Shown here: in pieces, positions 1 through 22,345 of the stretch | Numbering within the stretch: the first letter of the stretch is position 1 | How the letters are laid out: every line of letters starts with the position of its first letter | From: Candidatus Nitrosotenuis aquarius | GTDB taxonomy: Archaea > Thermoproteota > Nitrososphaeria > Nitrososphaerales > Nitrosopumilaceae | Length of the DNA: 64,000 bases | Reading direction: 5' to 3' | Assembly: GCF_002787055.1 (NCBI RefSeq) | Contig: NZ_CP024808.1 | Span: 1,018,328-1,082,327, forward strand | Translations under genes and position numbers: made by a program | The notes under the pieces: generated by a model | Databases searched by the model: none | What the model saw: only the letters and a program-made list of their open reading frames with translations | Told to the model about the DNA's origin: nothing

Positions 1-66
1 GTGTTAGAAACTAAAAAAGCATTATTACCTTATGCGTCAGACGAAATTAGAAAGCTCTTTGACTGA
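1..66 (+). CDS. possible C-terminal tail of a gene entering from the left (partial)
   Basis: Frame 1 is open from the window edge to a TGA at 64-66 and would encode 21 residues ending in an amphipathic, charged stretch. It would converge with and overlap the McrC gene by about 30 bases. The stretch is too short to identify, and an open frame of this length is common by chance, so this is only a pointer that a rightward gene may end here. Confidence 0.2.
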   Translation: MLETKKALLPYASDEIRKLFD

Positions 67-4172: not shown

Positions 4173-4187
4173 AAACCAACATCTGGA

Positions 4188-4355: not shown

Positions 4356-4428
4356 GCTACATTACCAAATCACATAGGATTAGTTAAGAATTATTGTGGT
4401 ACGATCATAAGAAAATAGGATCAAATAT

Positions 4429-4641: not shown

Positions 4642-4694
4642 ACATCTCTTAATTTGATATGAGATTAGTCTTTTAAAATATACTGAAATGATTT

Positions 4695-7600: not shown

Positions 7601-7838
7601 GTTTAAACTCAATCACTATATTTTCAAAAACTGCGTCAATTCTTCCCCTTAATTTCAGAAATTTACTTTCGGTAGGGACTTCAAAATCCATCTTTGAAAT
7701 ATCGATTTCAAAGACTTTTTGAATAAACGACGAAAATGCCACTGCTTTAGCATTTTCAGAGTGTTTATTTTTCACATCTTGAATGTATAGTGGTAGTTCT
7801 TTTTCTAAAATTTGAAGTGGATCTGCCAAACAACACAA
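4695..7838 (-). CDS. single-chain restriction-modification enzyme (type IIG-like): PD-(D/E)xK nuclease plus N6-adenine methyltransferase
   Basis: A 1047-residue enzyme expected to methylate adenine and cut DNA at the same site. Residues 60-80 carry a PD-(D/E)xK nuclease core (RGRIDAVFENIVIEFKR: D68, E77, K79). Residues 332-345 are motif X (GEFYTPDWLAEKIV), 357-369 motif I (VLDPSCGSGTFLF), 399-403 an acidic motif II region (GFDIHP) and 579-582 the catalytic NPPW of gamma-class adenine methylases. The C-terminal 400 residues are a target-recognition region with a GTFGPRH segment. Divergent from the ParB-like gene with a short shared intergenic region. Large adenine methylases also occur in BREX (PglX) and DISARM (DrmMI), but the nuclease domain and missing partners favour type IIG. 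Confidence 0.88.
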   Translation of the reverse strand: MCCLADPLQILEKELPLYIQDVKNKHSENAKAVAFSSFIQKVFEIDISKMDFEVPTESKFLKLRGRIDAVFENIVIEFKRDLTRSLEEAKDELKKYFQSLIEKFPTSKYIGIANDGIKFKVFQPIKKNGIVTDIEEIGNIDLETSDVKVIFNWFDSYFFTSKKIIPTSEHLKQSFGYNSPTYAVVRQELLELFDKVKDERRVKTKYDNWTRYLEIVYGDKPNEINLFIAHTYLSTFAKLLVYLKLSSKNQFRNYDAPPILQGYIFANYGIRNFVEEDLFTWIMYPSIKRKSSEIFEKLLRDLEIYDLDLIDEDVLKELYQDLIHPTIRKQLGEFYTPDWLAEKIVNEILQENPSKSVLDPSCGSGTFLFKTISYKIKKLVDVGLKKEDVLTHILENVIGFDIHPLAALIAKTNYLLAMRDILHYRRGPITIPVYLSDSLKLPTKKMEVTNAITTFEFDTQIDGKKFAFPLDIVDNIVNMDDVIEKMKVHGHELEEHIDDIKKSSYKIDINETAKNLIRSFDKAISNVKNDAMKQLLLHNVETLFEMIKDESDSIWPYILRNMYKPIAVSLRKVDAILGNPPWIAQQAMKNLTYQNYLKERSKTYELFDSKKIHNIPNLDLATLFFCQCSDIYLRDHGSIGFVMPRSILIGSQHENFLKFKKPNMKVEKIYDLEQVEPLFRIPSCVIFAKKSQLTVYPVTKEMFSGVLQTTNAHLSDAEKIIKLNTSSFEPAKRSTDHSIYHTKFSKGADIIPRCFWFMEVKNNSFLGFDPQSPFVESEFNKNAKVPWNKIKITGNLDKQFLFNSILSTDLIPFGSLRRHLVFLPVFMNNGKIKLINNFNEIGLEFQSTRKILQEIESLWLQHNKEKAKTITAYEWLNYRNKLTVQNPYPKFKVLYVASATYLTSCVIEPQKEFTFEVNNNKLTTTGLIADSTILYYDTNSAEEAHYLSSILNSTVLDQMIKPLQSAGTFGPRHIMKIPLTFPIPEYDSANSDHIRLATISKNCHDKVEHMLASITQKSTGKIRSIIRESLKSDISEINKIVKPLLNA

Positions 7839-7885
7839 ATTCTATAAAACCAGAATTAAACTTTCTATTACAAATAACTGTAAAA

Positions 7886-7894
7886 TTTTATTTA
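7886..7894 (+). promoter_or_regulatory. putative archaeal TATA box for the ParB-like gene
   Basis: The AT-rich stretch TTTTATTTA lies about 25 bases before the ATG at 7916, the distance expected for a leaderless archaeal transcript. No Shine-Dalgarno sequence precedes that ATG. The nearby upstream in-frame ATG at 7790 would overlap the divergent methyltransferase start and encode an unlikely extension, which supports the internal start and this promoter. Confidence 0.35.
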
Positions 7895-7915
7895 GTTTAC
7901 TTATTCTCATGCAAT

Positions 7916-9052
7916 ATGGAAATCAATACTGAAAATGCCAAAAGAATTGATTCCTATATATCAGATTATCCTACCTGTAAGACAGACTTCACAGAAAAAG
8001 TAACAATACAGGACAAAATTACTCGCATTCCGGTCTATCGACTTCCTCTGAATATGCTTTTTTACAATGTTCAGAATGGAAGATTTGCTGCTGAGTACAT
8101 TGAGCTAAAAAAGAAGTTAGGTCGAGAGCTTGATTCTCAAAATCCCAACGATGCAAAAGAAATAGAAAAAATGCTAAGAGATCAAAATGACTCTAAGACT
8201 AAATGGCTTAAAGAGGATATTCGCAATAATGGTCAACGGGATTCAGGCATAATTACACATGATGGTTTTGTTATAAACGGAAATAGACGTATGTCTGTTT
8301 TGAATCTTTTAGCTAAAGAAGATCCAAAATATGGATACATGGAAGTAGCTAGATTACCACCTCATGTCAGTGAATCTGATGTTTACAAAATAGAAATAGG
8401 AATACAACTTGCAAGAGAAGAACAACTAGACTATGGTCCAATAAACGAGCTACTCAAAATCAAACAGGGAGTCACATCAGGTTTAACAGAAGAGCAAATA
8501 GCAAAAACACTTAGCGGATTTACTGTTGATGACATTAAAGAACGATTAGAACGTCTAACACTAATTGAAGAGTATCTGGACTTTATTAAAAAGCCTGGAC
8601 AATATTTGGCAGCTGACGGATTAAATGAGCATTTTATTGATTTTCAAAAATCTATACTATCTAAAAACAAAAATAAAAAATCTCCAATTTTTGGCCCATT
8701 GGATTTACTAAATATGAAACAAGTTGCATTTTCCGTAATAAATCAAGGTGCAACACATATGGAAATTAGAAAAATTCCAAATGTAGTTCTTAATCAAAAG
8801 ATTAAGCCAATTTTTATTACTGCGGCTCAGAATGTGAGCGCTGATCCAAAAAGAACAAAAGAGATTTTTGAAACATGTCTTGAGAGAGTTAAAGCAGAGG
8901 AAAATCGTGATAGGCCATATCAGATCCTTAACACCATATTGGGAAATCTTGAAGCGTTAGATTATACAAATCCTGAGCTGAAAAAGGCAGAATACGATCA
9001 ACTAATCAAAAAAATTCTTGGTTATCTACAAGAATTACAAAAATTACAATAG
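7916..9052 (+). CDS. ParB-like nuclease/NTPase-fold protein, first gene of a defence operon
   Basis: Starting at 7916 gives 378 residues; an ATG 42 codons earlier is open but its extension is poorly conserved in character and overlaps the divergent gene. Residues 110-130 hold a ParB-like core (GFVINGNRRMSVLNLL), preceded by a helical, charged segment and followed by a helix-rich part (EEQIAKTLSGFTVDDIKERLERL) that resembles a ParB helix-turn-helix. ParB-fold proteins bind DNA and some use CTP or cut DNA; which applies here is unknown. It is followed after four bases by the SNF2 helicase gene, so the two are very probably one functional unit. Not a plasmid partition gene: no ParA is present. 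Confidence 0.8.
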   Translation: MEINTENAKRIDSYISDYPTCKTDFTEKVTIQDKITRIPVYRLPLNMLFYNVQNGRFAAEYIELKKKLGRELDSQNPNDAKEIEKMLRDQNDSKTKWLKEDIRNNGQRDSGIITHDGFVINGNRRMSVLNLLAKEDPKYGYMEVARLPPHVSESDVYKIEIGIQLAREEQLDYGPINELLKIKQGVTSGLTEEQIAKTLSGFTVDDIKERLERLTLIEEYLDFIKKPGQYLAADGLNEHFIDFQKSILSKNKNKKSPIFGPLDLLNMKQVAFSVINQGATHMEIRKIPNVVLNQKIKPIFITAAQNVSADPKRTKEIFETCLERVKAEENRDRPYQILNTILGNLEALDYTNPELKKAEYDQLIKKILGYLQELQKLQ

Positions 9053-9056
9053 TTAC

Positions 9057-10967
9057 ATGCCCGCAATATTTTTAGATAATCAGAAAATTCGAATATCCTT
9101 TTCTGATATTAAAAGTTCCGAGATAGATAATCAAGTTAGTCTTTTTTTCAAAAGCATGGGATCTATATTTGATGAAGAGACAAATTCATTTACCTTTGAT
9201 AGACCTTCAAATCTTTCATATTTACATACTGTTCTAAGTGATACAATACAATTTTTTGAAAGTAGAGGGTGGAAAATTGCATTAGATGAAAATTGTAAAC
9301 AGCTAATTTCCAGACATTCTGAAGATGAATCTAGCTATGAAAAAGCGTTAGAGATAGGCAGATCAATAAAAACATCTGAGGAGACTTTTATTGAATTACC
9401 AGTTATTTTTAAAAGACAATTAAAGGAATATCAGAAAAAATCTGTCAAACATTTAACAGAAATTGGAAATGCAGCTAATTTTTCTGTTCCAGGTAGTGGC
9501 AAGACCACAATTGCATATGCTGCATATTCAATTCTAAAACACAAAGGAATTGTAAATAAGATTTTTGTGGTTTGTCCCAGAGCTGCTTTTGTTCCATGGG
9601 AGGAAGAATTTCAGGCATGTTTTGGATACAAACCATCTTCGATTAGATTAGAAGGAAACAGAGTCGATTCCCACATACTAACAGATACAAACAACAAAGA
9701 TCTGATCCTTTCAACTTATCAGCTACCACCAAATCATTCTTACGCAATTAGCCAATTTTTAGAAAGAAACGACGTGTTAATGATCTTAGACGAGTCACAT
9801 CAAATTAAAAACATTGAAGGAGTTAGATCAAATGTATTAATCGATCTTGCACCATATGCAAAAAGAAGATTCATTCTATCTGGAACTCCGATGCCAAATA
9901 GCTGGGAAGACATATGGACACAATTTAATTTTCTTTGGCCATTATCTAGCATTCTTGATAATCCTCAGATCTTCAGAGATTATACTAAATTAAAAAATGG
10001 ATTAGGAAAATATAATGAACGAATAAATCCTTTATTTACAAGAATAGCTAAGAAAACACTTAATCTCAAAGAACCAAAATATGAGAAGATTTACTATCCA
10101 CTTCAACCAATTCAAAAGAGAATTTACGATTCAATTGAGTTAAGAACATTCGAACAGATAGAAAAAATGCATGTAGAGTCAATTGTCGAAAGTGCTAGAA
10201 TGCAGAAATGGAGACGTGCTAAAATGGTTAGACTGATTCAAGCAGCATCCAATCCCGCCTTACTAAATAGAACAGATACAGAATTTGAATTAGAACCAAT
10301 TTCTGATGATGGAATTGATGTGGCTGAACTCATTGAAAATTATACAACATACGGAGAAACACCATCAAAACTACAAGAGGCGACAAGGAAAGCCAGAGAG
10401 TTATTAGAAAAAGGCGAAAAAGTTGTCATCTGGACAAATTTTGTGCACAATATCGACATGCTAAAAGATCAGCTTTTAGCTGATGTCAAACCGTTGTGGG
10501 TAGACGGTAGGGTATCAAAAGACGAATCTGAAGATATTGAACAAAATAGAGAAAAAATGATTCAAGAATTCAAATCAGATTCCAATCCACGAGTTTTAAT
10601 TGCCACGCCTGCTTCATGTGCAGAATCTGTTTCTCTCCATAAATATCAAAACAAAACAGTTTGCTATAATGCCATTTACATAGATAGAACATACAATGCC
10701 GGCCAATATATGCAGTCTTTAGACAGAATACATAGAATCGGAATGGATTCCGATACCCAAGTGACATATTGGTTATGCATAGCAAAAGACACCTATGATG
10801 AATTAATTGATCAAAGATTAAATCATAAAATCCAAAATATGTATAATTTATTGAATGAAGATATCAATGTGTTTGATTTAGATGTTAATGAAACACAGGT
10901 ATCAGAATCCGAAATTGAAGATAATTATAAAGAATTAATTGAATATCTTAGAAAAAAAGTGAAATAA
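9057..10967 (+). CDS. SNF2-family helicase/translocase of the ParB-like defence operon
   Basis: The ATG at 9057, four bases after the ParB-like stop, gives 636 residues; an upstream in-frame ATG would overlap the previous gene. After a 115-residue N-terminal segment come superfamily 2 motifs: Q-like LKEYQKKSV near 122-130, Walker A VPGSGKT at 144-150, DESH at 245-248, SGTP at 275-278, and in the second lobe WTNFVHNIDML, LIATPASCAESVSL and DRIHRIG. The DESH box and HRIG end mark the SNF2/Rad54 group, double-stranded DNA translocases. Shorter than DISARM DrmD, which is around 1000 residues. The next gene begins on the adjacent base, confirming an operon. Confidence 0.9.
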   Translation: MPAIFLDNQKIRISFSDIKSSEIDNQVSLFFKSMGSIFDEETNSFTFDRPSNLSYLHTVLSDTIQFFESRGWKIALDENCKQLISRHSEDESSYEKALEIGRSIKTSEETFIELPVIFKRQLKEYQKKSVKHLTEIGNAANFSVPGSGKTTIAYAAYSILKHKGIVNKIFVVCPRAAFVPWEEEFQACFGYKPSSIRLEGNRVDSHILTDTNNKDLILSTYQLPPNHSYAISQFLERNDVLMILDESHQIKNIEGVRSNVLIDLAPYAKRRFILSGTPMPNSWEDIWTQFNFLWPLSSILDNPQIFRDYTKLKNGLGKYNERINPLFTRIAKKTLNLKEPKYEKIYYPLQPIQKRIYDSIELRTFEQIEKMHVESIVESARMQKWRRAKMVRLIQAASNPALLNRTDTEFELEPISDDGIDVAELIENYTTYGETPSKLQEATRKARELLEKGEKVVIWTNFVHNIDMLKDQLLADVKPLWVDGRVSKDESEDIEQNREKMIQEFKSDSNPRVLIATPASCAESVSLHKYQNKTVCYNAIYIDRTYNAGQYMQSLDRIHRIGMDSDTQVTYWLCIAKDTYDELIDQRLNHKIQNMYNLLNEDINVFDLDVNETQVSESEIEDNYKELIEYLRKKVK

Positions 10968-11951
10968 ATGTTAACCAACCTGAAGGAAATTAATCGACTC
11001 CTTCTTGCTATCAAACAAAGAGAATTGAATGAAGACGTAGCAAAGAAGCTAGATGTAATTGATGAATGCAAAAATATTGTATTAGGTGGAATCATACCAG
11101 ATCATAATGAAACAATTTCGTTTTGTAATTCTATGAATATTATTAATGAAGATGCTGATCTATTGTTTCTTACAAATACTGGTAAGCAATTATTTTTGTT
11201 AAATAAGGAAAGACAATATGAATTAACATCAGATCAAAAAGAAGTTTTGATCAAACAATGTTTTCTTGAAAATGACCATAAAGAAAAAACATTACAAATC
11301 TTAAAACAATTTTATGTTGATCATAGACGCCAAACATTCACATATTCTTTAAAAAATGAAATTCCATTAATTGCAGATCCTGTCTTTTTATCATTACTCA
11401 AACAAACAGAATTAATTGTAGAACATGGATATTTGTTAATTGTAAATGAAAAATTTGCTGGATTAATTTCTGCATTACTTATGCCTAAACATCATATTAC
11501 TGATGATGAATTAATGGAGATACTAAAAATTGAGAAAATTATAGGTAAAATTGCTGAAAAAATTGTTTTTGAGCACGAAAAGCGACGACTTTATAGCGAC
11601 GAAAACGCAAAGGCTGAATCCGACTTGGTACAAAACATCAGTAGTACTTTTGTTAATGCTGGTTACGACATCAATTCATTTGATGGTAAAACAAGAGATT
11701 TGAAATTCAATAGGTTTATCGAAGTAAAAGGATCTACAGGAAAGAGAATTTCTTTTTTCTTGAGTAGTAATGAAATAGACAAAGCCAAAGAACTCGGCTC
11801 AAAATATTGGATTTATTTTGTATCTGAGATAGATATAAAATCAAAATCACATAACGGTGAAATAATTAAAATTCAAAATCCAGTCATCAATATTCTAAAT
11901 AATGAGGAATATGAACAAGAATGTGTCAAGACGCGAATACATCTAAAATAG
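10968..11951 (+). CDS. DUF3883-domain protein, probable PD-(D/E)xK-type effector
   Basis: A 327-residue protein whose ATG follows the helicase stop directly. The N-terminal 200 residues look helical and winged-helix-like, without a named domain. Residues about 215-300 match the DUF3883 ('NO VEIN' C-terminal) pattern: ESDLVQNI near the start, GKTRDLKFNRFIEVKGST with the E-V-K of a nuclease core, then FFLSSNEIDKAKELGSKYWIYFV. DUF3883 is common beside helicases in prokaryotic defence loci and is thought to be a nuclease-fold domain. In this operon it is the likeliest cutting subunit working with the ParB-like and SNF2 proteins; that role is inferred from context. Confidence 0.8.
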   Translation: MLTNLKEINRLLLAIKQRELNEDVAKKLDVIDECKNIVLGGIIPDHNETISFCNSMNIINEDADLLFLTNTGKQLFLLNKERQYELTSDQKEVLIKQCFLENDHKEKTLQILKQFYVDHRRQTFTYSLKNEIPLIADPVFLSLLKQTELIVEHGYLLIVNEKFAGLISALLMPKHHITDDELMEILKIEKIIGKIAEKIVFEHEKRRLYSDENAKAESDLVQNISSTFVNAGYDINSFDGKTRDLKFNRFIEVKGSTGKRISFFLSSNEIDKAKELGSKYWIYFVSEIDIKSKSHNGEIIKIQNPVINILNNEEYEQECVKTRIHLK

Positions 11952-12039
11952 TGATTGGATCTAATACAATGATTTTCTGCTAATAATTTAATTTTAAAAG
12001 AATAATAACATGGAAAAAATTATTTCATAATAAGGTAGT

Positions 12040-12930
12040 ATGAAGAAACTAAATCTCAATAATGTATATCATAAAGATTGTCTAGACATGTTAAAGAAAC
12101 TAGATGATAATTCTATTGATTTCATAATAACATCTCCGCCATACGCAGATAATAGGAAAAAAACCTATGTCGGTGTTCCAATAAAGGAATATGTTCCGTG
12201 GTTTTTACCAATTTCTTTAGAACTAAAACGAGTACTCAAATCAGATGGCTCTTTTATTTTGAACATAAAAGAACGAACTGTTGATGGTGAACGTGGGACT
12301 TATGTGCTAGAGCTCATATTAGAAATGAGAAAACAGGGTTGGCTTTGGACTGAAGAATACATTTGGCATAAAAGGAATACGTTCCCAGGTAAATGGCCTA
12401 ATAGATTTAGAGACGCCTGGGAAAGATGTCTGCATTTTACGAAACAAAAGAAATTCAAAATGTATCAAGATGAAGTCATGGTACCGATGGGCTCTTGGGC
12501 TGAAAAACGTCTGAAAAATCTATCAAAAACTGACAAAAAAAGAGACGAATCTAAAGTTTTAAGCGGTTTTGGTAAAAATGTATCAAATTGGCTGGATAGA
12601 AAAACAGCATATCCTACCAATGTCTTACATATGGCAACTGAATGTTCCAATGTAAACCATAGTGCGGCATTTCCAGTATCATTGCCAGAGTGGTTTATCA
12701 GATTATTCACAAAAGAAGGCGATATAGTACTTGATCCATTTATGGGAAGTGGTACGACAGCAATTGCAGCGATTAATCTTAACAGACAGTTTCTTGGCTC
12801 AGAAAAAAATACAAAATACTACAAACATGCTCTAGAAAGAATTAAAGAGATTGGAAGAGAATCATTAAAAAATAAAACGAAGAATATGCAAAATAAAAAA
12901 CAATCTACAATGACATTATGGCAAGAATAG
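12040..12930 (+). CDS. beta-class DNA methyltransferase, SPPY type (probably N4-cytosine), type II R-M
   Basis: Site-specific DNA methyltransferase of 296 residues. The catalytic motif IV is TSPPY at 31-35, which points to N4-cytosine methylation although a few SPPY enzymes act on adenine. The AdoMet-binding motif I comes late, as LDPFMGSGTT at 231-240, so the motif order is that of the beta class. The end overlaps the endonuclease gene by 13 bases, the usual arrangement of a cognate type II pair. It protects host sites from the PmeII-like enzyme. An 88-base gap separates it from the DUF3883 gene, so it may have its own promoter. Confidence 0.92.
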   Translation: MKKLNLNNVYHKDCLDMLKKLDDNSIDFIITSPPYADNRKKTYVGVPIKEYVPWFLPISLELKRVLKSDGSFILNIKERTVDGERGTYVLELILEMRKQGWLWTEEYIWHKRNTFPGKWPNRFRDAWERCLHFTKQKKFKMYQDEVMVPMGSWAEKRLKNLSKTDKKRDESKVLSGFGKNVSNWLDRKTAYPTNVLHMATECSNVNHSAAFPVSLPEWFIRLFTKEGDIVLDPFMGSGTTAIAAINLNRQFLGSEKNTKYYKHALERIKEIGRESLKNKTKNMQNKKQSTMTLWQE

Positions 12931-13664
12931 ATGGTAACAAATTAGAATGTTTAATTGAAAAATGCCTAAATGATTTCTATGAGAGTAGACTTGCTAGGTT
13001 AGAGGAATTAAAATTAAAAATCATACTGCGACGAAAAAATCCATATCTTTTCAAAGCACTCAATACAGAAAAAGCATCTGATTTAGTTGAACAAATACTC
13101 ATGGCGTACATTTCATCATCAGATGAGACAATGTTTGGCGATAAATTTTTTGAACCAATTGCCAAACAAGTATCGGGAGGAGTAGTATCTCCAAGCGAGG
13201 GTGTAGATATAGCAGTAGAAACCAATGATCGATACACAGCTTATGCTGTAAAATCTGGACCGAATCCATTCAACTCTTCTGCTAAAAAAAGACAGAATGA
13301 TGAATTCAATGAATTACGTAATAGATTATATAAAATTAGAAAAGAATTTGATCCGGTACTTGCATATTCTTATGGAAAAAAAATAATCCCTCCAAAAAAG
13401 AACAAGAGTTATAGAGAAATTGCTGGTCAAGCATTTTGGGAAGAGTTAACCGGAGATTCTGATTTTTACATCAAATTGATTCGACTTATGGGAGATATCC
13501 CAAGAAAACACATGGAAAAATACAAACCACAATTAGAACATGCAGTGAATCGTTTTACGCTTGAGTTCACCAAGGATTTTTGCCAGAAAAATGGTCAAAT
13601 TGATTGGGAAAAACTAGTTCAATTAGTAAGCGAAAAACCAAAAAAACTGTCTAAAAGCAGATAA
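12918..13664 (+). CDS. type II restriction endonuclease, PmeII-like family
   Basis: A 248-residue protein matching the PmeII-type endonuclease layout: RRKNPYLFKA near 38-47, AYISSSDETMFGD near 63-75, and the nuclease core SEGVDIAVE then YAVKSGPNPFNSS, with likely catalytic D97 and K112. It begins inside the last codons of the methyltransferase gene, giving translational coupling. It would cut unmodified DNA at the site methylated by the upstream enzyme; the recognition sequence cannot be read from the protein. The family assignment is from recognition of these motifs and is fairly firm. Confidence 0.85.
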   Translation: MARIDGNKLECLIEKCLNDFYESRLARLEELKLKIILRRKNPYLFKALNTEKASDLVEQILMAYISSSDETMFGDKFFEPIAKQVSGGVVSPSEGVDIAVETNDRYTAYAVKSGPNPFNSSAKKRQNDEFNELRNRLYKIRKEFDPVLAYSYGKKIIPPKKNKSYREIAGQAFWEELTGDSDFYIKLIRLMGDIPRKHMEKYKPQLEHAVNRFTLEFTKDFCQKNGQIDWEKLVQLVSEKPKKLSKSR

Positions 13665-13708
13665 TCAAATAGATCAAGTTTTTCTATATCAAAAAGACGT
13701 TCATTTTA

Positions 13709-15205
13709 TTGTCTACCAAAATCACATTCTATGGCGGAATTAATGAGATTGGTGGTAACAAATTTCTAATTGAGGATAAGGGAACGAGGATTTTTCTAGA
13801 TTTTGGAATGCAGATGGGTAGAGCTAACGAATTTTTTGGTGATTTTATGCAGCCAAGAACACTCAATGGGATGGGAGATCTTTTTGAATTCGGACTTCTA
13901 CCTAAGATTGAAGGGATTTACAGAAAAGATTACGCAAAGCACACAAACATGGCGGACCATGACAAGGAGACAAAATGCGATGCTGTGTTATTGACTCATG
14001 CTCATGTTGATCATGCAGCATACATCCATTATCTAAGGCCTGAAATTCCAATTTACTGTACAGAAGCAACAAAGCTGATTATGAAAACATTTCAAGATAC
14101 GGGAAGTGGAGATGAGTACATCAAGTACAAAGAAAATTTTAGAATTTATGAAAATGATAAAGGCGAAATAAGTCGAGCTAAAAAAGACAAAAACCGAGAC
14201 ATCATAGAACGCGACATTAGAATAGTAACACCATACAAAGAATTCAGTATTGATTCAATTAAGGTAGAACCAATACCTGTAGATCATTCTTTACCAGGGG
14301 TTTGCGGTTATGTAATTCACACTTCAAAAGGGTCAATAGCATATACTGCAGATATTAGATTTCATGGTAGACGAAAAAATGAAAGTGAAAAATTTGTTGA
14401 GAAATGTGCTTCATCAGATCTAGATCACCTGTTGTGTGAGGGTACTAGAATCAACGAAGCTACATCCACAACGGAATTTGAAGTGGAAAAAGACATTGGA
14501 GATATAATTAATACAACTAAAGGATTGGTAACAGTTTCATATCCAACAAGAGATCTAGATAGGCTCCTTTCTTTCTATAATGCTGCAAAAAAAGCCAATC
14601 GATTTCTTGCAATTGATCTAAAGCAGGCATATTTGCTAAAATTATTTCAAGAATCCGAATCATACCGAGGAATTTATCCGAGATTAGATGATAATACGAT
14701 CAAAATCTACATTCCCAGAAAAGATTGGGGACTTGTTGATAAAAATTCTGAATATTGGACTGAAAAACAAATTCAAGCTGATTACGATATGTGGGAACGG
14801 GAATTCTTAGATTACGAGAATTCAATTGATTATAGAAATATCCAGGAAAAACAAAGCGATTATGTTTTTTATTGTAGTGATTATAAGCTCCAAGAGCTAA
14901 TTGATGTACGACCTGAAGATGGCTCTAGTTATGTGAGGTCTTCTACTGAGCCATTCAATGACGAAATGCACATAGATCATGCAAGAATAAAGCGATGGCT
15001 AGTACATTTTGGATTATTGAAAAGTGAAGATAATTGGAATGTTACTCATGTATCAGGACATGGCTCACGCGACCAAATCAGACACATTGTACAAGAAACA
15101 AAAACAAAGAAGATAATTCCAATACACACGGTTCATGAGGATTATTTCAAACAATGGCATAGTAATGTTGCAACCGTGCAACTAAATGCTTCATTGATGC
15201 TATAG
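13709..15205 (+). CDS. RNase J-like metallo-beta-lactamase/beta-CASP nuclease
   Basis: Starts with TTG at 13711 region (13709-13711); no ATG is available before the conserved fold. The 498 residues contain all expected metal motifs: D31 at the end of IFLDFG, HAHVDH at 97-102, H193 in PVDHSLPG and D215 in AYTADIRFHG. The beta-CASP motifs are E in LLCEGTRIN, H451 in VSGHGS and H473 in IIPIHT. This is the RNase J/CPSF arrangement, so a role in 5'-end RNA processing or decay is expected by family. It differs from housekeeping archaeal aRNase J in position, directly after an R-M pair in AT-rich accessory DNA, which suggests a defence or toxin-like function. Confidence 0.82.
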   Translation: MSTKITFYGGINEIGGNKFLIEDKGTRIFLDFGMQMGRANEFFGDFMQPRTLNGMGDLFEFGLLPKIEGIYRKDYAKHTNMADHDKETKCDAVLLTHAHVDHAAYIHYLRPEIPIYCTEATKLIMKTFQDTGSGDEYIKYKENFRIYENDKGEISRAKKDKNRDIIERDIRIVTPYKEFSIDSIKVEPIPVDHSLPGVCGYVIHTSKGSIAYTADIRFHGRRKNESEKFVEKCASSDLDHLLCEGTRINEATSTTEFEVEKDIGDIINTTKGLVTVSYPTRDLDRLLSFYNAAKKANRFLAIDLKQAYLLKLFQESESYRGIYPRLDDNTIKIYIPRKDWGLVDKNSEYWTEKQIQADYDMWEREFLDYENSIDYRNIQEKQSDYVFYCSDYKLQELIDVRPEDGSSYVRSSTEPFNDEMHIDHARIKRWLVHFGLLKSEDNWNVTHVSGHGSRDQIRHIVQETKTKKIIPIHTVHEDYFKQWHSNVATVQLNASLML

Positions 15206-15209
15206 CTCA

Positions 15210-15482
15210 CTACACATAGAACGGACCTTCTTCATGGAAGTCGATTTTCACGTATTCTGCCAACCTAACTATATCATCTATTACTGTATCACTTAGCATA
15301 TTTTCAGGTTGATGGAATACTAGCCAGTTTCTGATATCAGTTATGCTGTATGGCACTCCAGTTTGTAGCAGCTTACGGAAGTTGTTGATTAGCTTTTTCT
15401 GATCGCTAGGATAACTTAGTACACGGTTGTTTATTTCGGACCACTTTAGCGATTCAAGGAAAGTAATCAGCCGCTCATCCAT
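15210..15482 (-). CDS. unknown small protein at the end of the terminase operon
   Basis: Ninety residues, mixed alpha/helical character, acidic C-terminus ending FHEEGPFYV; no recognisable domain. The ATG lies 11 bases after the terminase nuclease stop, on the same strand and with the same higher GC, so it is the last gene of the leftward viral operon. Its stop is only four bases from the stop of the convergent RNase J-like gene, which makes this a plausible edge of the element. Function cannot be assigned. Confidence 0.6.
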   Translation of the reverse strand: MDERLITFLESLKWSEINNRVLSYPSDQKKLINNFRKLLQTGVPYSITDIRNWLVFHQPENMLSDTVIDDIVRLAEYVKIDFHEEGPFYV

Positions 15483-15493
15483 CTTTTCCAGTG

Positions 15494-16171
15494 TCAGTTA
15501 TTTTCACCTCCTTGTGGCATCGACGTCTTTACAGACGTTATCGTGAACCCACTTACTGCCAGTTTTCGTAATGTGTTTTCAACAACAGCAGGTGAACTTG
15601 GATCTACACTATCAGTCATGTCAAACGACATTGCAAGAGGCAATGGTTTTTCCATCTCTTGTTTCGCCACACGGCATGCCAGTGCAAGTGCCCATAGCAA
15701 ATCATCATGGCCGCTTGCAGGATGTTTGAATTTCACATTTCCCGCATCTGTGATAGTTCTTTCTTGTTCCTCAAGCTGCTGGATTAGCTTCTCCGCACCC
15801 TTTGATGGTAGTATCAGTTTGCCTTGTTGTCGCAATAAGATTATGTGCTCAATCATCTCTTCCTTGGCCTTCTGCGTGAACACAATCCCTTCTGCATTCT
15901 CTGCAGCATATTCTTCTATGACAGAGTCTCCTATGCCGCCCCTGTCCACTCCGAGTTTTGTCCAGTAAAAGTATCTGAAGTATCTCTTGGTGTCTGCGAT
16001 TACAGTTTTGTAATCAACATGATCCCACTCCTTCAGGAATACAAGTTTGAGGATCTCGTTGTTTATGCACTGCAATACAACCAGTGCAGAATAATCTCGG
16101 CGTTTAGCTAGATCTTGTCCTCCAAAAGTCTCTATCAGAGGTCCATCACTTGTTTTCCAAGATGTGATCAT
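15494..16171 (-). CDS. terminase large subunit, separate nuclease domain
   Basis: RNase H-like nuclease half of a viral DNA-packaging terminase, 225 residues. The acidic catalytic residues are visible in GGQDLAKRRDYSAL, in GVDRGGIGDSV and in HDDLLWALALA, the order seen in TerL nuclease domains. The gene starts by an ATGA overlap with the ATPase gene; its frame is closed by a TGA only 15 bases before that ATG, so an in-frame fusion is impossible without a shift. Together with the ATPase gene (293 residues) the total of 518 is that of an undivided TerL. It would cut concatemeric genomes during packaging. Confidence 0.85.
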   Translation of the reverse strand: MITSWKTSDGPLIETFGGQDLAKRRDYSALVVLQCINNEILKLVFLKEWDHVDYKTVIADTKRYFRYFYWTKLGVDRGGIGDSVIEEYAAENAEGIVFTQKAKEEMIEHIILLRQQGKLILPSKGAEKLIQQLEEQERTITDAGNVKFKHPASGHDDLLWALALACRVAKQEMEKPLPLAMSFDMTDSVDPSSPAVVENTLRKLAVSGFTITSVKTSMPQGGENN

Positions 16172-17049
16172 AGACTCACCAATTCATAGTCCTCAAGCGT
16201 CTTACTTGCAAACAGTCCTGCAGGGAATGCCGCATTCTGCGATGTCGTAAACTGGCAGTTGAACTCCTGCTCAAAGTCGATTCTCAGGTCGTTTTTCTTG
16301 GAATTTATGTATGATTCTGACAGTAAAAGTCCATACGATACAGTGTATGGTTGTGCAAGTTTGTAGTATTCATTTTCCTCAATCCACAAGTCGTAAAAGA
16401 AACCACGCCTGCCATTAGGCGTGGAAATGCAAATGAAATCTCCTTCAGTGTTTGCTATGTTTGGTTCCAGAGCATCATAGATTACTCTGTCATCAACTAG
16501 CTTGAAATGTGCCGCCTCATCCAGAAATACACATACAACATTCTCCGAGCCCCTGAGTGCCTCCGGTGCCGCAGGGAATGTGTGAATTGTAGTACCATTA
16601 AAGAACTCCAAAGTTGAGCTTGTCTTTTTTATTATGAGATCCGAGTATTTCCATTCGTTTCCATTCAAATCAACAAATCCATTCCAGAACAGCTTGTCAA
16701 ATCTGTCCAACAATCTATCTGCCTGTCGTTGTCTATTACCTGCGACTATCATGATATCCCCTCCTGCATATCTATCAAAGCAGTTCTTTGCAATGGATCT
16801 GAGTCCCGTCTCTGTAGCACCAATCTTTCGGGACTTGTTGAGCATGACTCGATGGTACTGGTTGATTATTCTGTCAAGCTTGCTTTGGTAGTCAAAGATT
16901 TTTGTTGGCTGTTTTGTCTTTGGATGGATCGGCGGTCCTATCATTTCATTGAACTGCACAAAGTCTGCAGGCACCGACGGTGTGGATGACGACTTTTTGA
17001 TCCTTGCCTCTAGCATCGATATCCGCTTTTGAAGGTTCATGCTAGTCAT
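16168..17049 (-). CDS. terminase large subunit, separate ATPase domain
   Basis: Packaging motor half of TerL. Translation from ATG 17049 gives 293 residues and overlaps the zinc-ribbon stop by eight bases; an upstream ATG at 17139 is open but would run through that gene. After a short coiled N-terminus come FDYQSKLDRIINQYHRVMLNKSRKIGATET (a deviant Walker A within SRKIGATET, as in many TerLs), EALRGSENVVCVFLDEAAHF (Walker B with catalytic Glu) and ISTPNGRRGFFYDLW (coupling motif). It ends exactly where the nuclease domain should begin and is coupled to that gene by ATGA. Confidence 0.86.
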   Translation of the reverse strand: MTSMNLQKRISMLEARIKKSSSTPSVPADFVQFNEMIGPPIHPKTKQPTKIFDYQSKLDRIINQYHRVMLNKSRKIGATETGLRSIAKNCFDRYAGGDIMIVAGNRQRQADRLLDRFDKLFWNGFVDLNGNEWKYSDLIIKKTSSTLEFFNGTTIHTFPAAPEALRGSENVVCVFLDEAAHFKLVDDRVIYDALEPNIANTEGDFICISTPNGRRGFFYDLWIEENEYYKLAQPYTVSYGLLLSESYINSKKNDLRIDFEQEFNCQFTTSQNAAFPAGLFASKTLEDYELVSL

Positions 17050-17194
17050 GCCTGTCTGCAACCTCCCTCGTCTTTCCACCACAACGACGGCAGTTGCCAA
17101 AGATCCACTGCAGCTTGCCGCATTTGAGGCACCGTACATTCTTGAGAACCATTCCGTTGGATGACACAGGCCTTGGCGTCGGAAACCTGTTCAT
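17042..17194 (-). CDS. small zinc-ribbon protein between replication and terminase genes
   Basis: A 50-residue frame from ATG 17194 to TAG at 17042-17044. It contains CLKC and, eleven residues later, CRRC (spacing CxxC...CxxC), in the setting VRCLKCGKLQWIFGNCRRCGGK, a typical zinc ribbon with a basic tail. Its start overlaps the upstream gene's stop (ATGA) and its stop overlaps the terminase start (ATGACTAG), so it fills a precise place in the operon. Likely a DNA- or protein-binding accessory factor for packaging or transcription; it could take the place of a small terminase subunit, but that is speculation. Confidence 0.75.
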   Translation of the reverse strand: MNRFPTPRPVSSNGMVLKNVRCLKCGKLQWIFGNCRRCGGKTREVADRHD

Positions 17195-17421
17195 TTGATG
17201 CCCAACCTCATTTCCAGCTCTTCCACACGCCCTTCCAGAAACGAGTTTTCCTCGTCCTTGATGAGGGAGGCCTGCACGCTGACCAAGTAGCCAATGGTTT
17301 TTGCCAAGGCCACACTTTTGCCAAGGTCCGACTCACCATCGAATCGCTGCTGCAGATTTTTGATGGTCTTGTGCATCATCTTTCCATAGGAACCCCTTGA
17401 ACGCCAGCGTGGAGGGCTCAA
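17191..17421 (-). CDS. small helical protein of the viral operon
   Basis: Up to 76 residues from a TTG that overlaps the previous stop (TTGA), or about 62 from the tandem ATG near 17379. The body is helical and charged, with a C-terminal heptad-like EEN-SFLEGRVEELEMRLGIK stretch that could form a coiled coil. No named family is recognised. Placed directly before the zinc ribbon and terminase genes, where small terminase subunits or packaging adaptors often lie, so a DNA-recognition or oligomeric adaptor role is possible but unproven. Confidence 0.6.
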   Translation of the reverse strand: MSPPRWRSRGSYGKMMHKTIKNLQQRFDGESDLGKSVALAKTIGYLVSVQASLIKDEENSFLEGRVEELEMRLGIK

Positions 17422-18956
17422 ATTTGTGCCTCCAGATGAGTGTCAAGTGTAGCTGTGTTAGGCACAACCGCCTCACGACCCCCACTCATCCCGTTTTTTT
17501 CTAAATTTTCCTGAGATAATTTAGAAAATCTTGGGTTGAGTATTGCCTTGAACTCGTGCCAGTATCCAAGAAACTCCGTGGACAGAAACCAGTCGAATTC
17601 CGGCTTTAGCTTTACCGCCATGATGGGCTTTGTTTCTCCCTCCACTTCCATCCTCTGTGCAAGTCCTATCTTGACTAGTCTCTCCATCTCCTTGCGTGCC
17701 GTTGCACGCGAGACGCCTGATGCTTCCATGTATTCATCTGTGTTTAGTTCTCCATCATGCTCAATCAAAAGCCGCAGCAGCTCAACACGTTCCCTTGCCG
17801 CACTTGACAGGGCAACCGGGACAACTACCCTGAGATCATCCGGTGCTACATGGTTTCTGCCATTGAGCACTGCATGGCCCCTGGCCAGGTTGTAGAGTGC
17901 ACTGCTTGCTCTGGAAGGATTCTCTTCTATTGGGGTTTCAAAATTGTAGCTTGCACCGCCTGAATCGGATTCTGCCGTGTGCCATGTCGGCACTGATGCC
18001 CTCAGCTTTGCCAGGATCATTGCCATTTGGATTATTTTTTCCAGTGTGGCTTCATCGTCTTTTTCAGAGTCCCAGCAGACTTTGCGGTTTGACACAGACG
18101 CCAAAAACAATTGCCAAAATTCTTTGACATTTTCTTTGCAGGACTCGAGCTTTGCTGCATACGACTGGCCCTTTAGGATTTGTTTTATCTCGTTGATTTT
18201 TTCATTGCCGGATTTTTGGTCTGACGGAAGCCGCAGGAAGTAGATCTTTGGTCCCAGATTGCCCAACAACTTCCACACCCGATGGGGTATGTCAACAACT
18301 GCACCAAGCCAGGTAAACGAGTAGTCTCCCTGATAGCCCCTGCTTCCGTGGACGCCAGAATCAGACTTGAATCCACGTCCGTCCAGAATTCGTGTTAGCA
18401 TGCCGAAATACTCTACGAGCTGGTCTGGATTGCCCGAGAAAAGCGGTGCCAGCTCCGGCGTGACCAGCGTTTTGTGCCTGATTCTGGGCAGGAGGTCCAC
18501 TTTTTCTAGGTCCTTCTTTGAGGAGTTTGCGGAATGGCTCACAAACGACTTTGGGGTGAAGGAATCCGACACGTAACATTCAGGCAGTGCGGCCAGTATC
18601 TCAAGCACCGTCGACTTGTAGCTGGATGGATTACCCATCAATATCAGAGTGAATACCTGCGTCACCCCTTGAATGGACATTTGTGCCTTTATTGCAAGAC
18701 ACACAGTCACTGCAAAGATTATACTGGGAAAAGAGGATCGGATTGCTTCATTCATTCTGGACAAGGCGGTTGAAAGAGGTTCTATCGAAGTAACAATTGG
18801 TTTGGTTTCAACTGCAGTTGGGACTTTGTCGTCATCGCCTAAGAACGACATGATTTCGTGGCCTCGCGACCTACATTCAGAAAATACCGGACTGTCTTCC
18901 GATTCGGCCTCTTTGTCATCAAATCTGCATCTATAGAACAACACCGTCATCTCCAT
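17418..18956 (-). CDS. P-loop ATPase with C-terminal winged helix, probable viral replication helicase
   Basis: A 512-residue protein. The P-loop is GNPSSYKST at 108-116 after a hydrophobic strand (FTLILM); a Walker B-like strand is LVTPELAPLF, and a later strand GDYSFTWLGAVVDIP may hold sensor residues. Residues about 395-450 form a winged helix (LRLLIEHDGELNTDEYMEASGVSRATARKEMERL). The layout of ATPase followed by a winged helix is shared with MCM-like and other hexameric replication motors of archaeal mobile elements; exact family not certain. It is the largest gene in the leftward operon, with clearly higher GC than the flanking defence genes. Confidence 0.7.
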   Translation of the reverse strand: MEMTVLFYRCRFDDKEAESEDSPVFSECRSRGHEIMSFLGDDDKVPTAVETKPIVTSIEPLSTALSRMNEAIRSSFPSIIFAVTVCLAIKAQMSIQGVTQVFTLILMGNPSSYKSTVLEILAALPECYVSDSFTPKSFVSHSANSSKKDLEKVDLLPRIRHKTLVTPELAPLFSGNPDQLVEYFGMLTRILDGRGFKSDSGVHGSRGYQGDYSFTWLGAVVDIPHRVWKLLGNLGPKIYFLRLPSDQKSGNEKINEIKQILKGQSYAAKLESCKENVKEFWQLFLASVSNRKVCWDSEKDDEATLEKIIQMAMILAKLRASVPTWHTAESDSGGASYNFETPIEENPSRASSALYNLARGHAVLNGRNHVAPDDLRVVVPVALSSAARERVELLRLLIEHDGELNTDEYMEASGVSRATARKEMERLVKIGLAQRMEVEGETKPIMAVKLKPEFDWFLSTEFLGYWHEFKAILNPRFSKLSQENLEKNGMSGGREAVVPNTATLDTHLEAQI

Positions 18957-19068
18957 GTTTGTTGCAGACGCACCTTACTTCGAATTCAAGTCCAGTTGCA
19001 CAATCTCTTTTGAGAATTTTGTCACAGTGGTTTGTACAGTTAGAGTCGATGCAACCGCTGCACAACAT
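18931..19068 (-). CDS. Cys-rich micro-protein, probable zinc finger
   Basis: A 45-residue frame from ATG 19068 to TAG at 18931-18933. Cysteines at 3, 6, 11, 15, 23, 33 and 35, with histidines at 14 and 38, form CxxC, CxxxC and CxC groups, far more than chance in a short frame. It overlaps the start of the ATPase gene by 26 bases in another frame and follows the RHH gene by 14 bases, so it fits as a member of the leftward operon. Function unknown; metal-binding DNA- or RNA-associated factor is the natural guess. Confidence 0.55.
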   Translation of the reverse strand: MLCSGCIDSNCTNHCDKILKRDCATGLEFEVRCVCNKHGDDGVVL

Positions 19069-19082
19069 CTCAAGAATTAGCT

Positions 19083-19271
19083 TCAAAACAACTTCTCCTC
19101 TTGCTTGCAGTTCAAGTCAGATGTCTTGAAGCCGTTTTTTTCCAGAGACTCAGTTAATAGAATTCTCAGTGCTGCCGAAATGTTTATTCCATGCAACGTC
19201 GCAAATGCTTTTGTCTGGGACCAAACATTACGGTCGATTTCAATTAGAGTCCTAACATTTCTTATTTCCAA
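19083..19271 (-). CDS. ribbon-helix-helix type regulator
   Basis: Sixty-two residues from a TTG. A short basic strand (VRTLIEIDRNVW) followed by two helices (SQTKAFATLHGINISAALRILLTESLEKNG) matches the ribbon-helix-helix fold of small dimeric repressors. It is the first gene of the leftward viral operon and is divergent from the winged-helix gene with a 62-base shared intergenic region, where an operator would be expected. Likely autoregulates the operon. The fold call rests on pattern, not on a conserved catalytic residue. Confidence 0.6.
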   Translation of the reverse strand: MEIRNVRTLIEIDRNVWSQTKAFATLHGINISAALRILLTESLEKNGFKTSDLNCKQEEKLF

Positions 19272-19333
19272 TAATTATCTATAGTCAAACGTCTATCAAA
19301 GAATGACTTGGATTACATTGTGGGGGTCGCGGT

Positions 19334-20275
19334 TTGGCAAGAGGATTAGACAAGAGGCAGAAAAAAGCAGTTGGAAGATCAGAGCACAAAATCATCAAAT
19401 ATGTTAGCAAACATGAGCCAGTTCTGTTTAGACAAATAGTGTCAAACAGTGGATTGCAGGATCACAAGACAGTACGGAAGAGACTCTCAGAATTGATCGC
19501 TAAAAAACAGATAGGCACAACCAAATTGGTGTATACTACAAATAAGAACAAGGGAAGAGAGTTTTACTTTTCAATTCCACCCTCTAAAAAAATATCTGAT
19601 TTATTGCTCAGAGAGGACATCTTTAGGAAAATTGGGACTGACAAGTATTATTACGGCATACGAGACGATGTTCCACTACCCGTACAGGCTGCTCATAAAC
19701 TCAGATTGCTGATGTTAGAGTTTCAGAGATTGAAGCAGAAATTCGACAGTAAATCCAACTGCATTGTGGTAAAAATCAGAGATAGTGACGGTAAATCAAT
19801 GTATGATTTTGAATCAAGTAATGCTCAGCTTTTAATAGATTTTGCAGCAATTGTAAAAAGCAGTACATCTGATTCTTATTTTGGTTTTAAAGAGTATTAT
19901 GATAGTGTTCTACGAGATATTATTTCCAAAATGGATGATATGTTTCAGAATTATAAAATTCTCTACGGGAACGGAATTTTTGATGGTCCAATTAAGACAA
20001 TCATAGCTAGATTGCTAATCGAAAATACGAAAAGCGGTGCGGCAAGCCAATTACCCAAGCTTTTGTTTGGTGATTCTAAGATAAAACTAAAGAAATCATT
20101 TTGTTTGAAAATTGCATCAGAGATTGAACGGGAATTATTCAACAAAGACGGCTCTCCCAACATAGACAGGATTAATCAAAATAACATCAACACGATTGGG
20201 GTGAAAGAATATCTTCCTCTTATCTTGTCTGGTGAGGCACTATACGAAATATGGAAAAATAACACTAAGGCCTAG
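19334..20275 (+). CDS. protein with N-terminal winged helix, function unknown
   Basis: Begins at a TTG just after a G-rich stretch (GGGGGTCGCGG) and encodes 313 residues. Residues 15-75 form a winged helix (EHKIIKYVSKHEPVLFRQIVSNSGLQDHKTVRKRLSELIAKKQIG, then a two-strand wing with TTNKNKGREFYFS). The rest is helical and unidentified. Divergent from the RHH gene and convergent with the integrase, overlapping its end by 11 bases. Its GC is lower than the terminase operon. Probably an element-encoded regulator; alternatives such as an antitoxin-like or replication-initiation protein cannot be excluded. Confidence 0.6.
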   Translation: MARGLDKRQKKAVGRSEHKIIKYVSKHEPVLFRQIVSNSGLQDHKTVRKRLSELIAKKQIGTTKLVYTTNKNKGREFYFSIPPSKKISDLLLREDIFRKIGTDKYYYGIRDDVPLPVQAAHKLRLLMLEFQRLKQKFDSKSNCIVVKIRDSDGKSMYDFESSNAQLLIDFAAIVKSSTSDSYFGFKEYYDSVLRDIISKMDDMFQNYKILYGNGIFDGPIKTIIARLLIENTKSGAASQLPKLLFGDSKIKLKKSFCLKIASEIERELFNKDGSPNIDRINQNNINTIGVKEYLPLILSGEALYEIWKNNTKA

Positions 20276-21494
20276 TTTTCCAGCCATCTCTGTAGAGCTC
20301 ATCCTTGATTCTAGCAACAGCGTCATTCACAAGGGAAGGTATTTGTTTCTCCAATTCAGATTTTTCATTTCTTAGTTTTTTGTTTTCTACTTTCATCCTT
20401 TCCTCATCCGAGATAGTCAAGTTTGGCACTGCATTCAGGTATTCCTCAATCAGCTCAAAGATGTGTGCCTGATAGTAGTTCCTGTCCAGCTTGACCAAGC
20501 CGGTGTGGTTCATCATGAATTCCTTTTTGATCAAGGCTGCCAAGTGGGAGTCCTTTGATATTGTCTCCTTGTTGACTTTGTTGAAAAATCTCCTAAAGCC
20601 GTTCATTGCCGGAATTTCATGTCTTCTCTTTCCCTTTACCAACGGAGTCCTGAGTTGTGCCCTTTTGAGTATGTCGTCAATCCTGGCCCTGACAGCATTT
20701 GGTGGAAGCTTTCTTGCAAAGACTCCATCTTTTTTGAAAAGAGGATCTTGCAGTTTTGGTTCTTTTCCGGTTTGTTGGACCCATTCTTTTTTGTAATCTT
20801 GTATTGCATTGTATGCTTCAGGAGTGATGAACCCAGGATACTCGTCAGGTGTGTTCTTGTATATTGTTAGTATTGCACAGACGACTTGTGCATGGGTTTG
20901 TTCGGATTCTGTTATGTCAAAAGCTAGCTTGTCACCTATTCTGTAGACTGGTCTCATGTCTCCCCATGTGAGATCAAATCCTCCCACGCGTATGCCGGAA
21001 CTTGCAGCAACTAGCACTATTGCCCTGTCGATTGCACCGTTGCCAAACCTGAGCATGTCTGCAATCTCTTTTCTGGTGTAGGCCCTGCCTTTGTCGTTGT
21101 TATCCAGTTCCGGAAAGGTCGCCATCACCCTTCTCCATACCAATGGAACATTGTTCATCTCAAACAGCTTTCTCACAGGCTTGAAGTAGTTTGGAATAGT
21201 GGATGGATTGAGGTAGTTTGGGTCATTCTTTGGAAGCTCTGATCTTTCCTTCAGCTTCTTTGATAGTGCAAGTACCACAGACATTCCCCAGTCAGGGTCT
21301 TTCTTGGTCTTGTTGACAAGCTGCGAAGCCCTTTCCTCAAAGCTTCCCTCCAATACATTTTCCAAGATATCATTGAGTATTCTTCGCAAAGTCCTAGTGT
21401 ACTTGTCCTTGGTTTCCTTGGACTTTATTCCATGATAGAATAACTCTAAAGCACTATGGTTTGTGATCTGCAAATCCTTGTTCTCTATCTTCAT
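20265..21494 (-). CDS. int: tyrosine recombinase (integrase) of an archaeal element
   Basis: A 409-residue integrase. Visible catalytic regions are the first Arg in AASSGIRVGG, the box II segment AMNGFRRFF (second Arg present; the residue usually His is Asn here), and NHTGLVKLDRNYYQ holding the late His and the nucleophilic Tyr. An N-terminal core-binding domain covers about residues 10-130, and a charged coiled-coil tail (KKLRNEKSELEKQI) follows the catalytic domain. The gene begins 45 bases from the tRNA-Lys 3' end, the normal place for an integrase that uses a tRNA 3' end as attachment site. It is intact, not split by integration. Confidence 0.88.
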   Translation of the reverse strand: MKIENKDLQITNHSALELFYHGIKSKETKDKYTRTLRRILNDILENVLEGSFEERASQLVNKTKKDPDWGMSVVLALSKKLKERSELPKNDPNYLNPSTIPNYFKPVRKLFEMNNVPLVWRRVMATFPELDNNDKGRAYTRKEIADMLRFGNGAIDRAIVLVAASSGIRVGGFDLTWGDMRPVYRIGDKLAFDITESEQTHAQVVCAILTIYKNTPDEYPGFITPEAYNAIQDYKKEWVQQTGKEPKLQDPLFKKDGVFARKLPPNAVRARIDDILKRAQLRTPLVKGKRRHEIPAMNGFRRFFNKVNKETISKDSHLAALIKKEFMMNHTGLVKLDRNYYQAHIFELIEEYLNAVPNLTISDEERMKVENKKLRNEKSELEKQIPSLVNDAVARIKDELYRDGWKTRP

Positions 21495-21539
21495 AATACT
21501 ATCATGTGGTCTGGAACCATAAAAAGCACTTTATGATAG

Positions 21540-21628
21540 CGGGTCTGGTGGGATTCGAACCCACGACATAAGGATGTCTCCAAGTAATTTTAAGAGTCCT
21601 TCGCTCTACCTGGCTGAGCCACAGACCC
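21540..21628 (-). tRNA. tRNA-Lys(CTT) with a 15-base intron
   Basis: Reads on the minus strand. Acceptor GGGTCTG pairs with CAGACCC; D-arm GCTC/GAGC; anticodon stem AAGGA/TCCTT with loop CTCTTAA, anticodon CTT; T-arm GTGGG-TTCGAAT-CCCAC; discriminator G. Between loop positions 37 and 38 are 15 extra bases at 21576-21590, the standard archaeal intron site, so exons are 21591-21628 and 21540-21575, giving a 74-nt mature tRNA. CCA is not encoded. The 3' end faces the integrase, marking this as the attachment site of the element to the left. Confidence 0.92.
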
Positions 21629-21676
21629 CCACCAAGCAAAAAACAATGGTACGGTTATTTAATTGAGATGAAAAAT

Positions 21677-22345
21677 TTAGTTTGAAGTTTTTGCTTCGAT
21701 TTCGCTGTATTTGTCCAGAATAGCAGTCAAAACTGTCGAAACTGGGATGTTGTTCATCTTTTTCTTTTCTGCCAATAGTTTTTGGTATGCATCCAGTGTG
21801 ATGTATACTGGTATGGAGCCGTTTCCTTCTAGCAGTCCTCGGACTCTGAAGAGTGCGCTTTCCATTCCTTTTTCAGCAGTCTTGGCGAATTTTACCTTGT
21901 TTAGGATTCCGCCCAGTGGACCAAACGGCATCTCATAGTTTACCGTCATTGTGACAGTGGTTAGTCGCTCTGTCTTTGGCGTAAATTCCGTGGTAATATC
22001 CCATTTCTTGAATGGTCCTGAGATCATTTTTGCAGAGATCTTTCTTTCCCTGACAAATTCCGTTGTCTCGCAATCCCATTCTAGTCTTTTTCCGCTAAAG
22101 TCGCCTACGATTCGAAATGTTGTTCCAACACCCATTCCCTCTTTGATATCCATTGGAATGACTGTCATTCCTACACCCTTGTCAGACATTTGGTCAGAGA
22201 CGTGCTCTGGTCTTGCAAAGTATGTAAAAACGGTGTCAACGGGAGCTTTGATGTCGATTGATTTGCTAACTGTGGTCAACGTTGGGCCTTTTTCAAAGTC
22301 TGCATTTAAAGCTTTTGTCAGTTTCCGAATAAATTCAAGTTGCAT
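21677..22345 (-). CDS. SRPBCC-family (START-like) protein with a small C-terminal RHH-like tail
   Basis: From ATG 22345 the protein has 222 residues; an ATG 12 codons earlier would overlap the divergent gene. Residues about 25-165 are a polyketide-cyclase/SRPBCC lipid-binding fold (VSKSIDIKAPVDTVFTYFARPEHVS, then alternating strands ending MPFGPLGGILNK). After it, residues 175-218 (IPVYITLDAYQKLLAEKKKMNNIPVSTVLTAILDKYSE) look like a strand-helix-helix module resembling an RHH DNA-binding domain. The pairing suggests a ligand-responsive regulator, which is inference. Divergent from the membrane protein at 22370. Confidence 0.72.
   Translation of the reverse strand: MQLEFIRKLTKALNADFEKGPTLTTVSKSIDIKAPVDTVFTYFARPEHVSDQMSDKGVGMTVIPMDIKEGMGVGTTFRIVGDFSGKRLEWDCETTEFVRERKISAKMISGPFKKWDITTEFTPKTERLTTVTMTVNYEMPFGPLGGILNKVKFAKTAEKGMESALFRVRGLLEGNGSIPVYITLDAYQKLLAEKKKMNNIPVSTVLTAILDKYSEIEAKTSN

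Follow-up and report, generated by a model that had tools for sequence, protein, structure and literature searches.

Candidatus Nitrosotenuis aquarius (NZ_CP024808.1) encodes the ATPase and the RNase H-like nuclease of a T4-type terminase large subunit (TerL) as separate minus-strand genes, located at positions 15494-17049 of the window (the whole 64,000-nt stretch of DNA analyzed), and this is very probably a true two-gene large terminase that descends from a clade of thaumarchaeal tailed viruses and provirus-like elements. In virus assembly, the packaging enzyme both pumps and cuts the viral DNA and is normally one protein; the divided TerL departs from this usual one-polypeptide form. That the split is real and inherited is, by sequence comparison, near certain, and we infer that the two proteins likely assemble and act as one packaging motor in which pump and cutter are not covalently linked.

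The gene pair and its junction

An earlier note on this DNA had read a TerL divided between its ATPase and nuclease domains at an ATGA, and the open reading frames and Pfam matches bear this out (Table 1). The ATPase half matches Terminase_6N (PF03237) at 41.8 bits (cut-off 22) and the nuclease half matches Terminase_6C (PF17289) at 34.7 bits (cut-off 22.6). Reading the ORFs on the minus strand, the ATPase stop TGA is 16170-16168 and the nuclease ATG is 16171-16169, and the nuclease frame is indeed closed, as claimed, by an in-frame TGA (16186-16184) that begins 15 bases 5' of its ATG. Taking the ATPase start at 17049 (an alternative in-frame ATG lies upstream at 17139), the halves sum to 518 aa (293 + 225), which had been called a normal TerL size; aligned with undivided TerLs, they span the whole protein, with the break falling in the interdomain linker. 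The spacing between the ATPase and nuclease cores, counted by eye, is approximately 45 residues here vs 35-42 in undivided TerLs.

The note's statement that both halves keep their catalytic residues stands with one refinement. The ATPase has K72, a Walker B DE (177-178) within FLDEAAH, and an STPNG motif, and the nuclease has D20, D76, H155, D156, and D157, but the Walker A motif is deviant (NKSRKIGATE, with no GK[ST] and with K72 placed early in the motif). The pair thus carries an ASCE ATPase with a Walker A lysine of the deviant kind, a Walker B DE and an STP motif, and an RNase H-like domain with acidic catalytic residues (PF17289; D20, D76, D157; fold match 5m1o), and because these domains are on two genes and not in one polypeptide, it is classed as a divided TerL variant and not as an ordinary TerL. 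AlphaFold models generated from alignments of 29 (ATPase) and 25 (nuclease) rows have mean pLDDT values of 89 and 83, respectively, with confidence falling at the last ~22 residues of the ATPase and at the first ~10 residues and C-terminal tail of the nuclease. The best Foldseek matches in the PDB are the ATPase domain of T4 gp17 (2o0j) and the nuclease of G20c TerL (5m1o), respectively. Judged by Pfam, AlphaFold, and Foldseek, the genes are predicted to encode two complete TerL domains separated at the linker. Compared to TerLs of the T4 gp17 and P74-26/G20c type, each half is homologous to one domain in sequence and fold and keeps the catalytic residues, whereas those enzymes are encoded by one gene and the window has two genes, a deviant Walker A, and unlinked domains.

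The duplex energy of the Shine-Dalgarno-like site with a generic anti-Shine-Dalgarno sequence is matched or exceeded at 1.6% of the 2718 ATGs in the window and is reached at 4 of 59 predicted gene starts. Three further junctions of the operon overlap (TTGA at 17421, ATGA at 17194, and 8 nt at 17049). Weighed against chance, the site and the overlapping neighbors are hints, and the strong evidence comes from relatives.

Table 1. Coordinates of the terminase operon and the adjoining integration site in the window.
Feature	Position	Strand	Remarks
90-aa ORF 3' of nuclease	15210..15482	-	ORF list
TerL nuclease gene	15494..16171	-	225 aa, RNase H-like, D20, D76, D157; Pfam Terminase_6C, AlphaFold, PDB fold match
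ATGA overlap, 4 nt	16168..16171	-	ATPase stop and nuclease start
TerL ATPase gene	16168..17049	-	293 aa (MTSMNLQ...DYELVSL*); Pfam Terminase_6N, AlphaFold, PDB fold match
GGTGA, Shine-Dalgarno-like	16176..16180	-	four bases 5' of nuclease ATG
50-aa protein, two CxxC pairs	17042..17194	-	overlaps both neighbors; phrog_28476, E 0.004
76-aa helical protein, TTG start	17191..17421	-	occupies the TerS place of relatives; putative only, no family match
512-aa protein, AAA lid and winged-helix matches	17418..18956	-	Pfam PF17863, 29.9 bits; probably MCM-like replication protein
Putative tyrosine integrase, 409 aa	20265..21494	-	adjoins tRNA; by position and reading, no Pfam match
att copy TAGCGGGTCTGGTGG	21537..21551	+	tRNA 3' end; right end of 23.6-kb element
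Target tRNA gene	21539..21628	-	tRNA prediction and Rfam match

Divided terminases in archaeal genomes and viral contigs

The ATPase half has matches in 52 of 400 genomes of the order, its own genome counted, and a nuclease search gave matches in 29 of the 400. As a single sequence, the nuclease half matches in 4 of 250 family genomes, its own counted; of the other three matches, one is an undivided TerL (L003), one a short nuclease fragment in a 180-aa frame (L005), and the last (L004), a 233-aa frame with an internal stop, was discarded as chance. The nine closest ATPase relatives have frames of 286-379 aa, below whole-TerL length, and the separate nuclease genes next to relatives' ATPases were located with profiles. 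L056 has an ATGA junction as in the window, its ATPase itself being in two frames; in L053 the ATPase TAA is followed immediately by the nuclease ATG, with the frames in phase across one stop; L050 has a TGATG junction and a disrupted nuclease N-terminus; and in L249 one-base overlaps connect TerS-like, ATPase, and nuclease genes. The two genes are separated by 1.4 kb with small ORFs in L052, and lie ~14 kb apart on opposite strands in the one genome that holds L054 and L250. The ATPase C-termini are alike (LEDYELVSL in the window, LRDYEMDEL in L053, LSDYELEEL in L050, LADYELDKI in L056) despite identities to the window ATPase of 34% (L053) and 39% (L050), and the stop is therefore at a homologous place.

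No nuclease was found beside the ATPase in L047, L048, L049, L051, L055, L064, and L065 (L048, L049, and L051 being on short contigs), and G216 and G217, two genomes of these relatives, gave no match in the 400-genome nuclease search. The pair is thus not always kept (L047, L064, L065, and others), which suggests that the ATPase can persist independently of this nuclease. Four genomes of a genus-level group, g53 (L058 9674-10489, L059 8733-9548, L060 7076-7882, L061 9792-10613), have a free TerL-like ATPase, ~270 aa in length, at a conserved host locus between genes that read as FMN-reductase-like and PP2C-like; it resembles a domesticated packaging ATPase. A longer TerL ATPase, again with no nuclease, occurs in congeners (L064 8167-9504, L065 8695-9987); in L065 it adjoins an integrase, at the tRNA-flank gene where the window's element also lies. 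By reading, the ATPase in L051 (1-5655) adjoins genes resembling dndB, dndC, dndD, and dndA (phosphorothioation). L055 contains near-identical tandem copies of a free ATPase ~6.8 kb apart (8532-9569 and 15368-16405), both of which precede a gene with an identical N-terminus. The Walker B aspartate is replaced by Ser or Thr, with the catalytic Glu kept, in L047, L049, L051, L064, L065, L176, L181, L182, L096, L100, and L102.

Each half used as a single sequence found no relative in viral contigs, so profiles were needed, and named phage records yielded no close relative. The ATPase profile retrieved 46 IMG/VR loci, several of which are near-copies; L096/L184 and L100/L185 are the same records, and the 41-locus set described below includes same-record pairs. 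A free ATPase and a free downstream nuclease frame are present in 38 of the 46 loci, an undivided TerL in four (L214-L217), and three (L218-L220) are below the ATPase threshold. The last, L182, has no nuclease in the stretch examined, and a search of its whole record gives a nuclease match with two internal stops. When whole records were searched, each of the 10 large viral records, L182's among them, gave a nuclease match in a frame of 203-289 aa. Three free nucleases and one free viral ATPase among those scanned exceed the Pfam cut-offs (L183, L186, L187). The gaps between the genes, whose lengths are approximate because the start codons are unsettled, range from 142 bases to ~6 kb and have 0-13 predicted ORFs of at least 50 aa on either strand; a Met stands shortly before the nuclease GxD motif in most viral loci.

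An ORF of at least 250 aa lies within 1.5 kb 3' of the nuclease in 33 of 41 viral loci and belongs to one linked protein family in 32 of the 33 (the exception is L202). The 13 members of this ~560-aa gene family that were searched gave five weak member-family matches, to three PHROG portal families (best 3.5e-4), and no match of note among solved structures; from these weak matches, the gene is a putative portal. On the other side, an ORF of 139-197 aa with weak TerS and HTH matches is located 5' of the ATPase in 27 of the 41 loci and overlaps the ATPase start in 26. The nuclease gene is thus usually placed just before the putative portal gene and the ATPase gene often just after a small TerS-like gene, and in the thaumarchaeal clade the two appear often to have drifted apart, the ATPase to the TerS-like gene and the nuclease to the putative portal gene.

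An ATPase tree was generated by a quick method with no bootstrap from 162 rows, reduced to 115 by near-duplicate removal; only ORFs whose ATPase match spans at least 180 aa and scores at least 30 were used (hence the absence of L056), and duplicate loci of one place were not entered. The 115 rows include 35 split, 64 undivided, and 16 lone ATPases (L182 is labeled lone, though its record has the stop-bearing nuclease match). The window falls within a 15-row set (support 96) of eight split, seven lone, and no undivided rows. Split rows occur elsewhere in the tree as well and the label changes at least eight times on well supported branches, so several gains, retentions, or losses of TerL division seem to have occurred. 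In L114, L115, L117, L121, L123, L128, L133, L135, L136, and L154, ATPase and nuclease are in separate, overlapping, or adjacent frames; these cases, in other TerL clades of metagenomic contigs, are possibly further independent splits or frameshifts, and the split label in the outer clades, where gaps in metagenome contigs are around zero, may include frameshift errors.

The earlier note had weighed a one-base error, i.e. an ordinary undivided TerL gene broken by an indel from sequencing or assembly, against a true split, and had proposed looking for the split in other Thaumarchaeota. A one-base change anywhere in 16168-16186 would join both frames. This account is nevertheless extremely unlikely: four loci share the conserved ATPase C-terminus, homopolymers at the junction do not exceed two bases, and the genome is a single contig that is 99.97% complete. 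The same split is found in relatives with differing junctions, which argues that it is inherited and not a sequencing error, and the prospect that all homologues would be undivided is contradicted by close relatives that are divided, many with genes between the halves. Production of a fused TerL by programmed frameshifting or stop readthrough is highly improbable as well. The overlap would permit a -1 shift and a single stop separates the in-phase frames of L053, but the overlap is short with no slippery heptamer by eye, the nuclease has its own Shine-Dalgarno-like site, and many gene pairs have hundreds to thousands of bases between them; junctions vary among relatives, and all three relative frames of ATPase and nuclease occur across the 41 viral loci (20, 16, and 5). 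Interruption of terL by a group I intron or intein and rejoining by splicing has a precedent in Jug phages, in which terL is reported as spread over several ORFs with introns and splicing restores one protein (PMC12363816), but here it is close to inconceivable: the genes overlap by 4 nt, leaving no intervening sequence, each half has its own stop and start, and Rfam finds only the tRNA in window 13000-22000 and nothing in six related loci. The inherited two-gene arrangement in relatives supports the note's view that a true split is believable.

The integrated element

The 15-bp att sequence is present in three exact copies at genome positions 999918, 1016233, and 1039864, the first two found in L256 (2419-2433) and L257 (2234-2248) and the third in the window. 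With the empty site in a congener (L243), the three copies point to two unlike tandem insertions in one tRNA gene, of 16.3 and 23.6 kb. No att repeat emerged when window 1-22000 was searched for repeats; the left end of the element lies outside the window; it was located by comparison with the empty site in another genome. The tRNA gene is 90 bases long and is called by ARAGORN as Phe(aaa), an odd anticodon, and is perhaps an intron-containing tRNA misread.

The second, 23.6-kb element covers window 1-21537. Several restriction or defense genes form its cargo (window 37-13664): a type IIG restriction enzyme, genes read as McrBC-like (AAA_5 match), an SNF2 helicase and NOV_C protein, and a methyltransferase with an EcoO109I-type endonuclease. 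The element also contains an RNase J-like metallo-hydrolase, the terminase operon, and the putative integrase. The 16.3-kb element encodes a 147-aa TerS-like HTH protein, a label taken from reading and from an HTH match. Among the subset of ORFs read or scanned in the 23.6-kb element and its 16.3-kb neighbor, none was recognized as a portal or capsid gene; capsid genes diverge fast. With regard to a possible PICI/P4-like satellite, the element has att copies and terminase genes, a putative integrase assigned by reading, and no recognized capsid set. As part of an integrated element with no recognized capsid genes, the window copy may be either the relic of a provirus or a satellite's packaging module.

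The absence of a recognized portal or capsid gene, and the loss of the nuclease in related elements, would fit a decaying provirus in which division of TerL was a step of decay and the gene pair is now functionless; a TerL relic in a cryptic element has been proposed for NitKor-E1 (PMC6563490). Decay is a serious possibility for this copy, if not a probable one. Viruses carrying the putative portal gene have the division too, and in the window both frames remain open, retain every catalytic residue, and have overlapping neighbors, although the copy may have become idle recently. NitKor-E1, a cryptic element of Nitrosopumilus koreensis AR1 compared here by description only, likewise has TerS and TerL and is integrated in a tRNA or other gene with no other tailed-virus genes, whereas the portion of its description consulted does not mention a divided TerL (PMC6563490). 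The TerL of Nitrososphaera provirus Nvie-Pro1 is also thaumarchaeal with a related ATPase (23% identity over 80% of the query), but is a single 456-aa gene whose frame also includes the nuclease region. The Marthaviruses, marine thaumarchaeal tailed viruses compared by description, resemble the split-TerL viruses in putative hosts and in a Rad51/RadA match, present in 4 of 10 split-TerL viral records searched; the Rad51/RadA gene is called typical of Marthavirus (PMC7678222).

A probable packaging motor of two proteins

For an inherited two-gene terminase, coupled translation would yield both proteins, which would meet on the portal as one motor through non-covalent contacts, with a nuclease ring against the portal and an ATPase ring below, and the nuclease would cleave DNA both when packaging begins and when it ends. 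The motor of HK97 has its nuclease ring under the portal and its ATPase ring below, and translocation is ascribed to interdomain contraction (PMC10359639). The placement of nuclease genes by the putative portal gene and of ATPase genes by the TerS-like gene would fit this ring order, judged by gene position. Motor models invoke contraction of two linked domains (PMC10359639, PMC8589836), and the associated nuclease domain is called universal across Caudovirales in a comparative paper (PMC7824862). The literature searched, with the 2019 Marthavirus description and most subscription papers outside its scope, contained no report of an intron-free TerL whose ATPase and nuclease are separate genes.

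A broader reading, which we consider rather unlikely as a whole, combines a clade of archaeal tailed viruses whose two-protein motor has no covalent hinge for interdomain force with the window's element as a capsid-less satellite that loads into helper heads with its own two-part terminase while carrying restriction systems. Searches that require a full-length TerL would miss or misjudge viruses with divided terminases, and a natural clade with unlinked domains would make the need for a covalent link between pump and cutter directly testable.
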